Assembly (NCBI GenBank): GCA_030148305.1
Contig: JASBTS010000060.1
Span: 1 to 36,762 of the forward strand
Reading direction: 5' to 3'
Length of the DNA stretch: 36,762 bases
Origin: Allomuricauda sp.
GTDB lineage: Bacteria; Bacteroidota; Bacteroidia; Flavobacteriales; Flavobacteriaceae
Position numbers and translations under genes: made by a program. The first letter of the stretch is position 1; the number at the start of each line of letters is the position of its first letter. Positions 16,869-30,226 of this stretch are shown here, in pieces. The notes beneath the pieces were generated by a model that saw nothing but the letters and a program-made list of their open reading frames with translations, was not told the DNA's origin and ran no database searches.

Positions 16869-17837
16869 TTAAGCGTTTTGGGCTTTAAATTCCTTTAATT
16901 TTTCGATGAGTTTGGGCACTACCTCAAAGGCATCCCCAACAATTCCGTAATCAGCGGCCTTAAAGAAAGGAGCCTCGGGGTCGTTGTTGATGACCACTTT
17001 TACTTTGGAGGCACTTACTCCGGCCAAATGTTGAATGGCTCCAGAGATTCCCACGGCAATGTATAGATTACTAGCTACAGGCTTCCCTGTTTGCCCTACG
17101 TGCTCTCCATGAGGACGCCAGCCCAAATCGGAAACCGGTTTGGAACAGGCCGTAGCGGCACCCAAAACTTGGGCCAATTCTTCGATCATCCCCCAATTTT
17201 CAGGTCCCTTCAACCCGCGACCACCGGACACCACGATATCGGCATCGGCAATGGTCACTTTTCCGGAAACTCTATCCACTTCAACAGATTTAACAGCAAA
17301 GTCGCCATCGGTCAATGAAGGATTAAAATCTTCCACACCCGCCGAAACATTATTTTCCACAACTCCGTATGCATTATTTGATACCCCGATTACTTTTACA
17401 TCGGAGACGATTTCAGTATGGGCAAAGCCCTTGTTGCTGAAAGCCGTTCTTTTTACCACAAATGGGGAAGTGCTATCTGGCGCGGCTACCACATTTGGAA
17501 CATAGCCTGCATCGATTTTGGTGGCAAGTATCGGTGCCAAAAATTTGGTGTCTGAACTGGAGCTTAAAACAATGACTTTGGCTCCTTCCGCTTTAGCAGC
17601 TTGTGCCAAAGCATCGGCATAGGCCTTTGCATTGAAGGTGTCCAGTTTATCATTGGTGATTTTCAAAACTTTGGAAACCCCATAGGTGCCCAAGGTTGCA
17701 TCGTCCTGTGCATTGAACGTTACAGCCGTAATGGTGGTACCCAAATCTTGGGCCACCTTGTAGGCGTAAGAAGCCACTTCAAAGGCATTCTTTTTAAACT
17801 TTCCCTTAAGGGATTCGGTATATACTAGTACTGACAT
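16869..17837 (-). CDS. etfA: electron transfer flavoprotein subunit alpha
   Basis: EtfA, with EtfB, carries electrons from acyl-CoA dehydrogenases to the quinone pool. The 322-residue protein has the C-terminal FAD-binding region with VSGGRGLKGPENWGM, GWRPHGEHVGQTGK, YIAVGISGAIQHLAG and NNDPEAPFFKAADYGIVGD. The length is normal. It lies 108 bp downstream of etfB on the same strand, and the spacer holds two hairpin repeats that could modulate the EtfB:EtfA ratio or protect the mRNA. Confidence 0.97.
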   Translation of the reverse strand: MSVLVYTESLKGKFKKNAFEVASYAYKVAQDLGTTITAVTFNAQDDATLGTYGVSKVLKITNDKLDTFNAKAYADALAQAAKAEGAKVIVLSSSSDTKFLAPILATKIDAGYVPNVVAAPDSTSPFVVKRTAFSNKGFAHTEIVSDVKVIGVSNNAYGVVENNVSAGVEDFNPSLTDGDFAVKSVEVDRVSGKVTIADADIVVSGGRGLKGPENWGMIEELAQVLGAATACSKPVSDLGWRPHGEHVGQTGKPVASNLYIAVGISGAIQHLAGVSASKVKVVINNDPEAPFFKAADYGIVGDAFEVVPKLIEKLKEFKAQNA

Positions 17838-17945: not shown

Positions 17946-18692
17946 TTAAATCACTTTAGCTTCGTTGTGCAATAGATCTACCAGTTCCCCAACATTATCA
18001 GGTCTCACCAATTTAACGGCTCCTTTTGGTGCGGGTTTATCGAATTTTTCATCCTTGGTCAACTGTGGTGCATCTACGGGCTCCAATACATTCAACGCTT
18101 TTTGTCTGGCCATCATGATGCCACGCATATTGGGAATGCGTAGATCACTTTCTTCTACCAACCCTTTTTGTCCACCGATCACTAAAGGCAATGAAGTGCT
18201 CAGTTTTTCCTTTCCTCCATCAATCTCTCGCAAAGCGGTAGCTTGGGTTCCGTCAATTTCCAAACCGATACAGGTATTTACAAAGTTCATGTCCAATAGA
18301 GTGGCCAACATTCCGGGTACCATACCACCATTATAGTCTATGGATTCCCTACCGGCAATGACTAGGTCGTAACCGCCATTTTTGACCACTTCGGCCAATT
18401 GTTTGGCTACGAAAAAACCATCCTTGGGCTCGGCATTTACCCTGATTGCCTCATCGGCCCCAATGGCAAGTGCCTTTCTGATGGTGGGTTCTGTTTGGGC
18501 CCCTCCAACGGTTGCCACATGCACGGTTGCACCTTGTTTTTCCTTGAACCACATGGCACGGGTCAATCCGAACTCATCGTTGGGATTAATCACAAATTGA
18601 ACCCCGTTTGTATCAAACTTGGTGTCGCCTTCCGTAAAATTGATTTTGGAAGTAGTATCCGGTACGTTGCTTATGCAAACTAAAATCTTCAT
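17946..18692 (-). CDS. etfB: electron transfer flavoprotein subunit beta
   Basis: The 248-residue protein is the AMP-binding beta subunit of ETF. It has the family start MKILVCISNVPDTTSKI, the central YDLVIAGRESIDYNGGMVPGML (AMP/FAD region) and the recognition-loop segment RIPNMRGIMMARQKALNV with its conserved Leu replaced in the usual bacterial manner. It heads the etfBA unit. Upstream are a perfect -7 box on the minus strand and a 28-bp palindrome that would cover the -33 region. Confidence 0.97.
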   Translation of the reverse strand: MKILVCISNVPDTTSKINFTEGDTKFDTNGVQFVINPNDEFGLTRAMWFKEKQGATVHVATVGGAQTEPTIRKALAIGADEAIRVNAEPKDGFFVAKQLAEVVKNGGYDLVIAGRESIDYNGGMVPGMLATLLDMNFVNTCIGLEIDGTQATALREIDGGKEKLSTSLPLVIGGQKGLVEESDLRIPNMRGIMMARQKALNVLEPVDAPQLTKDEKFDKPAPKGAVKLVRPDNVGELVDLLHNEAKVI

Positions 18693-18735: not shown

Positions 18736-18763
18736 AAATTTATTATGCATGCATAATAAATTT
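18736..18763. promoter_or_regulatory. 28-bp perfect palindrome (candidate operator) between etfB and pdhB
   Basis: The half site AAATTTATTATGCA (18736-18749) is followed without a spacer by its exact reverse complement (18750-18763). The core is TTATGCATGCATAA. It lies 13 bp upstream of the etfB -7 box, where a bound protein would block the promoter, and about 30 bp upstream of the pdhB promoter. It has no T tract and lies between divergent genes, so it is not a terminator. Confidence 0.75.
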
Positions 18764-18792: not shown

Positions 18793-18819
18793 TTGTTCGG
18801 TGAGTTTTTGCTATTTTTG
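18793..18819 (+). promoter_or_regulatory. candidate pdhB promoter
   Basis: TTG (18793-18795) is followed after 16 bp by TATTTTTG (18812-18819), an exact -7 match. The spacer is slightly short. The predicted leader is about 40 nt. Confidence 0.5.
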
Positions 18820-18863: not shown

Positions 18864-19841
18864 ATGAAAACACTACAGTTTAGGGAAGCCATTGCGGAGG
18901 CCATGTCCGAAGAAATGAGAAGGGATGATTCCATTTATTTGATGGGTGAGGAGGTAGCCGAGTACAACGGTGCCTATAAAGCTTCAAAAGGAATGTTGGA
19001 TGAATTTGGACCGGAAAGGGTTTTGGATACACCTATTTCCGAGTTGGGCTTTGCCGGTGTAGGCGTAGGTTCTACCATGAACGGCAACAGACCTATCATA
19101 GAATTCATGACCTTCAACTTCTCCTTGGTAGGAATTGACCAGATCATCAACAACGCGGCAAAGATTCGTCAGATGTCTGCCGGACAGTTCAACTGCCCTA
19201 TCGTTTTTAGGGGTCCGACCGCTTCTGCAGGTCAGTTGGCCGCTACACACTCGCAGGCTTTTGAAAGTTGGTATGCCAATTGTCCAGGGCTTAAGGTAGT
19301 GGTTCCATCAAACCCTGCCGATGCCAAAGGACTATTGAAAAGCGCTATTCGCGATAACGACCCCGTAATTTTTATGGAGTCCGAGCAAATGTATGGTGAC
19401 AAAGGTGAGGTGCCAGAAGGCGAGTACACCATTCCATTGGGAGTTGCCGACATTAAGCGTGAAGGTAGCGATGTGACCATTGTTTCCTTTGGAAAAATCA
19501 TCAAAGAAGCCTACAAGGCCGCCGAAGAGTTGGAAAAGGAAGGTATCAGCTGCGAGATCATCGATTTGCGTACCGTTCGTCCAATGGATATCAATGCCAT
19601 CATCACTTCCGTTAAGAAAACCAATAGAATGGTGATTTTGGAAGAAGCGTGGCCATTTGGTAACGTGGCAACCGAAATTATCTACCACGTTCAGGACAAA
19701 GCATTCGATTATTTGGATGCCCCAATCGTAAAATTGAACACCGCCGACACTCCTGCGCCCTATTCGCCAGTACTTTTGGCGGAATGGTTGCCTAACCACG
19801 AAGATGTGATCAAGGCTGTTAAGAAAGTGTTATATAAGTAA
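18864..19841 (+). CDS. pdhB: pyruvate dehydrogenase E1 component, beta subunit
   Basis: The 325-residue protein is the beta chain of the thiamine-diphosphate E1 enzyme that decarboxylates pyruvate. It shows MGEEVAEYNGAYKASKGM, DTPISELGFAGVGVG (with the ThDP-activating Glu), the FRGPTASAGQLAATHSQ loop and the C-terminal EEAWPFGNVATEI. The alpha chain and E2 are not in the window, as is usual in flavobacteria where they lie elsewhere. It is divergent from etfB and followed by a strong terminator. The choice of pyruvate over branched-chain keto acids rests on family resemblance and is very likely. Confidence 0.93.
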   Translation: MKTLQFREAIAEAMSEEMRRDDSIYLMGEEVAEYNGAYKASKGMLDEFGPERVLDTPISELGFAGVGVGSTMNGNRPIIEFMTFNFSLVGIDQIINNAAKIRQMSAGQFNCPIVFRGPTASAGQLAATHSQAFESWYANCPGLKVVVPSNPADAKGLLKSAIRDNDPVIFMESEQMYGDKGEVPEGEYTIPLGVADIKREGSDVTIVSFGKIIKEAYKAAEELEKEGISCEIIDLRTVRPMDINAIITSVKKTNRMVILEEAWPFGNVATEIIYHVQDKAFDYLDAPIVKLNTADTPAPYSPVLLAEWLPNHEDVIKAVKKVLYK

Positions 19842-28916: not shown

Positions 28917-30170
28917 ATGCCATATTTATTTACATCAGAATCTGTTAGTGAAGGACACCCGGATAAGATTGCAGATCAAATCAGTGATGCCCTTTTGGAT
29001 AATTTTTTAGCCTTTGACCCCGAGAGCAAAGTGGCCTGCGAAACTTTGGTAACGACCGGACAAGTGGTGCTGGCAGGTGAGGTTAAGAGCCATACCTATG
29101 TAGACTTGCAAAGTATTGCCCGAGAAGTGATCAATAAAATCGGTTACACCAAAGGGGAATATAAGTTCAGCGGGGATTCCTGTGGGGTAATCTCCTTGAT
29201 CCACGAACAATCACAGGACATTAACCAAGGGGTAGATCGCGGTAGTAAGGAAGAGCAAGGAGCCGGTGACCAAGGGATGATGTTCGGTTATGCCACCAAG
29301 GAAACGGCCAATTACATGCCGTTGGCTTTGGATATATCGCACAAGATTTTGCAAGTGCTTGCCGATATGCGCAGGGAAGGGGATAGAATTTCCTATTTGA
29401 GACCCGATGCCAAGTCCCAGGTAACCATCGAATATTCCGATGATAACGTGCCTCAGCGTATTGATACCATTGTGGTTTCTACCCAGCATGATGATTTTGC
29501 GGATGATGAGGTAATGTTGACCCAGATCAAGAAGGATATCATCAACATTCTCATTCCAGAGGTGAAAAGTCTTTTGCCAGAGGATATCCAGAAACTCTTC
29601 AACGACAAAATCAAATACCATATTAACCCAACAGGTAAGTTTGTGATCGGGGGTCCACATGGCGATACCGGATTGACCGGTAGGAAGATTATTGTGGATA
29701 CCTATGGTGGCAAGGGTGCCCATGGGGGTGGTGCCTTTAGTGGAAAAGACCCGAGCAAGGTGGACCGAAGTGCCGCTTATGCCGCACGCCATATGGCAAA
29801 GAACCTTGTAGCTGCGGGCGTGGCCGATGAAATTTTGGTACAGGTCAGTTATGCCATCGGCGTGGTAGAGCCCACTTCTATTTTTGTGGAAACCTATGGT
29901 TCATCCAACGTAAAGTTAAACGATGGCGAGATTGCCAAAAAAGCTGCGGAGCTTTTTGATATGCGACCTTTTGCTATTGAGGAGCGTCTTAAGCTTAGAA
30001 ACCCTATCTATTTGGAAACTGCTGCTTATGGTCATTTGGGCAAGGAACCCCAAACGTTGACCAAGGTATTCGAATCTCCCTACAACGGAAGAATCGAAAA
30101 AGAAGTGGAGCTGTTCACTTGGGAAAAACTGGATATGGTGGACAAAGTGAAAGCTACGTTTGGCCTTTAA
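28917..30170 (+). CDS. metK: S-adenosylmethionine synthetase
   Basis: MetK makes S-adenosylmethionine from ATP and methionine. The 417-residue protein begins with [22 protein letters not shown] (ATP-binding His and the Mg Asp) and contains [33 protein letters not shown] and [19 protein letters not shown], the standard signatures. Length is slightly above that of E. coli MetK (384) owing to a loop insertion in the middle region. It is preceded by a promoter and a SAM-II riboswitch, so feedback by its own product is expected, and a strong terminator follows. Confidence 0.98.
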
Positions 30171-30195: not shown

Positions 30196-30226
30196 AAAAA
30201 GAGCCTTGATCAAGGCTCCTTTTTTT
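30196..30226 (+). terminator. rho-independent terminator after metK
   Basis: GAGCCTTGATCAAGGCTC (30201-30218) is a perfect palindrome, with A residues upstream and a T tract at 30220-30226. Confidence 0.93.

Follow-up and report, generated by a model that had tools for sequence, protein, structure and literature searches.

A 28-bp perfect palindrome (positions 18736–18763, no strand assigned) in the analysed stretch of Allomuricauda sp. DNA (the window, 36,762 nt) is very probably, judging from the sequence comparisons reported here, an operator bound by a MarR repressor that controls its own gene along with fatty-acid metabolism and would block the promoter of the adjacent etfB gene. The left arm (18736–18749, AAATTTATTATGCA) is joined without a spacer to a right arm (18750–18763, TGCATAATAAATTT) that is its exact reverse complement. 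Both arms were verified in the sequence, and the perfect spacerless repeat described in an earlier sequence-only reading is therefore real. Within it lies a conserved 14-bp core, TTATGCATGCATAA (18743–18756, no strand assigned), defined by comparison with the rest of the genome and with relatives, where the family-wide consensus is YTATGCRYGCATAR. The palindrome is the longest of its spacerless kind in the window, the runner-up measuring 18 bp. In 100 windows simulated with a first-order Markov model, the longest palindrome per window was 12–22 bp, which bears out the earlier judgement that a length of 28 bp is unlikely by chance. A chance origin of the palindrome is ruled out by these simulated windows and by the excess of copies in the genome. 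Separately, an 18-bp palindrome, GAGCCTTGATCAAGGCTC, is found at window positions 30201–30218, directly past an ORF end at 30170, and is perhaps a terminator.

The palindrome separates two divergent genes. The proposed target, etfB (electron transfer flavoprotein subunit beta, 17946–18692, minus strand), has etfA (subunit alpha, 16869–17837, minus strand) downstream of it; the top NCBIfam matches for both are ETF subunits, yet these matches fall below the curated cut-offs. The neighbour on the plus strand, pdhB (pyruvate dehydrogenase E1 beta, 18864–19841), scores above its NCBIfam cut-off. As the sequence-only reading had it, a perfect −7 box for etfB is present on the minus strand (TATATTTG, 18722–18715), 20 bp past the core and 30 bp before the ATG at 18692. 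The −7 box is placed at −12 to −5 in PMC9723704, and the core would thus be at about −33 to −46, counting from a start site inferred from the consensus, so that the overlap with the −33 region of etfB claimed earlier holds. The conservation at etfB in relatives that was to be expected of an operator is also found: etfB was detected in 59/60 family genomes, and a YTATGCRYGCATAR site precedes it in 30/30 loci read (the best-scoring 30 of the 59).

The earlier proposal that one regulator controls both etfB and pdhB stands in part. The site does lie on the predicted etfB promoter, but the predicted pdhB −7 box (TATTTTTG, 18812–18819, plus strand) starts 55 bp beyond the core in the window and 54–55 bp past it in 3/3 same-genus loci tested, which makes pdhB no more than a possible target. 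The two genes are divergent neighbours in 30/30 family loci read, so shared control is conceivable. In three further genomes (G025, G027 and G286), the site precedes etfB and pdhB is absent among the ORFs listed beside the site.

The window corresponds to contig C211 in a draft genome of 3.1 Mb (80% complete), and the further genomic copies predicted for an operator were found in this genome. The core occurs five times exactly, where a first-order model of the window predicts 0.02 exact copies, and once more with one mismatch. Genes at the copies were named by BLAST, Pfam and NCBIfam. Besides the exact copy in the etfB/pdhB intergenic palindrome, there are exact copies 37 bp upstream of the start codon of marR, which is directly followed by fadB (3-hydroxyacyl-CoA dehydrogenase/enoyl-CoA hydratase) (C55), 49 bp upstream of a ketoacyl-ACP synthase III-type (KAS III) gene (C73), before a GDSL-type gene (C196), and between a 4HBT thioesterase gene and a nitronate-monooxygenase-family (NMO) gene (C52). 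The copy with one mismatch precedes the gene for a TonB-dependent receptor that follows glmS (C176). The GDSL assignment comes from a full-length relative in G009 that matches GDSL-lipase profiles, with no Pfam match to the 308 residues present on C196. Nine of the 15 places found in this genome were two-mismatch matches, and these were left out as targets because a control pattern also matched at 10 places with that setting.

Allowing up to one mismatch, sites were found in 31/39 genomes searched. All 24 same-genus genomes, including the source genome, contained 3–8 sites each, and the reversed control pattern matched in 3 of these 24. Twenty regions taken from three same-genus genomes had 17 sites at the identical six gene sets and 3 elsewhere. 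In G017 and G018, one-mismatch sites that separate rpsT-like from proS-like genes showed no visible link to fats, nor did a further one in G018, and all of them were excluded from the target count. The gap between the rpsT-like and proS-like genes contains an identical 34-base stretch with TTATGCTTGCATAA in two same-genus genomes (L069 at 3992, L075 at 3982), and this inverted repeat is probably unrelated to the regulon.

The marR gene on C55 encodes the candidate regulator. Its product matches PF01047 at 40.5 bits, above the curated cut-off of 24.6, and is 97% identical to a protein of Muricauda sp. M10. The AlphaFold model (pLDDT 92) displays the MarR fold with N- and C-terminal dimerisation helices. 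Fold searches with this model gave many tied MarR rows, of which the best was DNA-bound MepR (Z 16.5, r.m.s.d. 1.6, 135 aligned); the SlyA–DNA match had Z 15.9 and r.m.s.d. 2.2 (140 aligned). A sequence profile search of the PDB returned generic MarR proteins, including CouR, with no FabT-named chain to E 0.001, a result that is compatible with a relation to FabT. Of the TetR- or MarR-type regulator suggested in the sequence-only reading, a MarR candidate beside fadB and with its own site has been found, and it probably binds the palindrome.

The palindromic site is present at the promoter of marR itself in all 80 named-genome loci, which are the top-scoring 80 among 577 or more MarR-profile matches. 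Within 350 bp upstream of marR, these loci have the core exactly in 72, with one mismatch in 6 and with two mismatches in 2, and control tiles from the same loci had 4–6 mismatches in 822/843 cases. The distance from the site to the matched stretch, whose first codon is codon 2, is 37–46 bp. We also picked, from the listed marR matches, 20 marR-positive family genomes that lack an exact core, and all 20 have a copy before marR, with one mismatch in 14 and two in 6; four of these inexact copies are 64–126 bp away and the others 34–41 bp. The operon order in G018 is marR–fadB–thiolase–acyl-CoA dehydrogenase, where the last two genes were named by translation and by the Pfam match of a G286 relative. 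Of 19 marR loci belonging to other families in the order and class, 16 have fadB behind marR, and their mismatches to YTATGCRYGCATAR are at most one in 13, two in 1 and three in 2, while the three loci without fadB have 4–5. In two genomes of one other genus, two putative operators stand exactly 29 bp apart just before marR (G169:C1:1617810 and 1617839; G419:C6:78423 and 78452), a tandem arrangement that possibly allows cooperative binding.

The distance from the core to the start of the −7 box is 20–21 bp at etfB, 10 bp at marR and 17 bp at the NMO gene (4/4 same-genus loci each). These positions are inside the expected footprint of RNA polymerase and suggest repression. We infer that a MarR homodimer, encoded elsewhere in the genome by the C55 gene, binds the palindrome and, when fatty acids are absent, would cover the −33 region of etfB and block RNA polymerase; at its own promoter, the dimer would lie over the spacer between the −33 and −7 elements. 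Once fatty acids are imported and activated, long-chain acyl-CoA (a guess) would release MarR. The result would be joint production of fadB (with fadA and fadE, which are behind fadB in a same-genus genome), of etfBA, the electron acceptor of β-oxidation, and of genes for lipid uptake or processing. The choice of acyl-CoA as ligand is a guess by analogy, based on the targets and on the CoA-thioester-responsive MarR proteins described in PMC5487221. In published transcriptomes of Flavobacterium psychrophilum, β-oxidation genes rise strongly in fish mucus and plasma (PMC9723704), as would fit a repressor, of whatever identity, being released by fatty acids.

Not every target can be explained by simple occlusion. 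The −7 box of the GDSL gene is farther away, starting 40 bp past the core (4/4 loci), the site of the thioesterase gene is 14 bp before the ATG (4/4 loci), and no TANNTTTG −7 box was found at KAS III (3 loci) or at the TonB receptor (4 loci); other modes of action are possible at these four genes. Activators commonly bind upstream of the core promoter, which is where the core would sit at the GDSL gene (roughly −53 to −66) and in front of pdhB (roughly −68 to −81). Activation is also known for some MarR proteins (PMC5487221). We nevertheless regard a regulator that is mainly an activator, or that combines activation with repression, as unlikely compared with a plain repressor, because the cores at marR, etfB and NMO are close enough to their −7 boxes to fall within the polymerase footprint.

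Site and candidate regulator occur together across genomes. The consensus was found in 272/282 marR-positive and 3/17 marR-negative genomes of the family (Fisher p = 3e-15) and in 38/46 and 10/201, respectively, of a phylum sample in which marR-positive was defined as E<=1e-12 (Fisher p = 1.5e-27), and the exact core in 140/282 and 1/17 of the family genomes (Fisher p 3e-4), all of these p values being overstated because related genomes lack independence. The phylum contrast tracks the tree, and for the class minus the order it is 9/16 versus 3/15. The reversed control pattern matched in 33/299 family genomes and 23/247 phylum-sample genomes, and there was no consensus match in 10/282 marR-positive family genomes.

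Co-occurrence would equally be expected if marR were just one conserved target and the palindrome were the operator of a different widespread regulator (e.g. of the TetR type). The three marR-negative family genomes with sites are in keeping with this, since their 6 sites are all at fatty-acid or regulon-type genes, namely at the TonB receptor, etfB/pdhB and a fabH-like gene in G176 (99% complete), at fabH-like and FabK-like genes in G053 (84% complete), and at acpP–fabF in G246. No marR was found in these three genomes even at E<=1, which could be due to assembly gaps, loss, or another regulator. Three observations make a different regulator improbable. The marR site varies very little in sequence and distance across the 80 named loci, the palindrome tracks the marR–fadB pair in other families, and the consensus in marR-negative genomes is either rare (3/17) or near the control rate (10/201, compared with 23/247 overall for the control). 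Also at odds with the MarR reading, two genomes, G430 and G538, have 4 and 8 sites, respectively, and a marR homologue with neither an adjoining site nor fadB. Among 6 of their sites that were read, one stands 9 bp ahead of an acyl-CoA dehydrogenase gene and one precedes a 4Fe-4S protein gene; others adjoin genes with no connection to fats, ilvD among them.

The perfect symmetry across 28 bp would also speak for a hairpin or cruciform, be it a terminator, a structured RNA or a cross extruded from the DNA. Such a reading is very hard to reconcile with the position of the palindrome between divergent genes and upstream of the −7 box predicted for etfB, with the weak covariation of its arms (a clear pairing excess at 1 of 14 positions, 21 observed and 16.0 expected, in 27 distinct sites from the 80 marR loci), and with conservation of the sequence itself (TATGC..GCATA) beyond mere complementarity.

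An autoregulated MarR repressor would have several counterparts, as MarR-type metabolic regulators with palindromic operators are well known as a kind, and FadR, PsrA and FabT are fatty-acid regulators of other bacteria with a role comparable to the one proposed here. FabT uses acyl-ACP as corepressor, and FadR, of the GntR family, is released by long-chain acyl-CoA. FabT, a MarR-family protein of Streptococcus, represses fatty-acid synthesis (PMC5487221), and it likewise joins a MarR fold to fatty-acid gene targets. The palindrome also precedes fabH or acpP–fabF in some genera, resembling the targets of FabT. The conserved core of the targets here, however, is β-oxidation and etfBA, whereas FabT represses synthesis, and the similarity is at the level of the fold (6jbx, FabT–DNA: Z 14.6, r.m.s.d. 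2.7, 140 aligned, 17% identity, tied with many MarR proteins). CouR and FerC are MarR repressors of catabolic operons for which the substrate's CoA thioester is the releasing ligand (PMC5487221), and our model matches CouR (5cyv) with Z 14.7 and r.m.s.d. 3.1 (140 aligned, 20% identity). Their substrates are aromatic (aryl-CoA), whereas those here would be fatty and the ligand is predicted. Escherichia coli FadR is alike in role, as it represses the fad system and also acts on a synthesis pathway (PMC3460868), but it is from another protein family than the regulator described here, which is a MarR by Pfam and by fold. Among the titles and abstract openings listed from the searched literature, subscription papers and preprints aside, there was no description of the site, regulator or regulon, and no paper had the core 14-mer as text.

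Flavobacteria are important degraders of algal matter at sea, and their switch for fat breakdown seems little studied, with no described regulator in the searched literature. Site and regulator recur across flavobacteria and some relatives, and we tentatively suggest that this MarR could be a general regulator of fatty-acid homeostasis in a large part of Bacteroidia, though the balance is slightly against so broad a role. If it were so, MarR would link β-oxidation and ETF to synthesis (through fabH, acpP–fabF and FabK-like genes in some genera), and the TonB receptor beside glmS, the 500-residue GDSL-type protein and the KAS III beside gcvP would be parts of a flavobacterial route for lipid uptake and processing; MarR may also repress some promoters and activate others. 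With a named candidate regulator, a sharply defined operator consensus and few targets, the proposal is directly testable in laboratory strains, and it offers a functional lead, in lipid uptake or processing, for the conserved TonB receptor and other genes without an assigned role.

The targets in relatives agree with the fatty-acid regulon first proposed from the window, with sites recurring at fadB, etfB and lipid-related genes. Ten other genera, chosen for having several exact sites, have 48 sites that fit TTATGCNNGCATAA, and 39 of these were examined. Thirty-three adjoin members of the regulon or one of the fadB, fabH and FabK-like genes, and 6 are elsewhere. The 33 comprise sites at marR (4), etfB (4), the TonB receptor after glmS (7), the thioesterase/NMO genes (4), the GDSL-type gene (4), the KAS III gene beside gcvP (3), fadB (1), fabH (3) and FabK-like genes (3). 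By coordinates, 6 of the remaining 9 sit just before marR. Of the three fabH assignments, two were compared with NCBIfam and both pass the cut-offs, and the FabK-like genes match NCBIfam below cut-off. G286 has separate sites for fadB, etfB and marR. In five genomes from other families, 7/9 sites are at fatty-acid or regulon genes, the exceptions being L050 and L054. The targets in these families are etfB (G025 and G027), marR–fadB (G029), a FabK-like gene (G033), acpP–fabF and a KAS III gene (both G025), and an outer-membrane protein gene (G024) whose product is FadL-like, below the Pfam cut-off.

Two further arrangements were seen among the relatives. In G283 (L157 1501, 1598), two exact sites 97 bp apart have a FabK-like gene on one side and, on the other, a divergently oriented ORF of 167 residues that has no Pfam match. 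In two genera (L308 1501 and L174 1501), a site is found 31–34 bp before an outer-membrane protein gene beside ribosomal-protein-type genes, and for L308 only, Pfam identifies a carboxypeptidase-regulatory-like domain in this outer-membrane protein.
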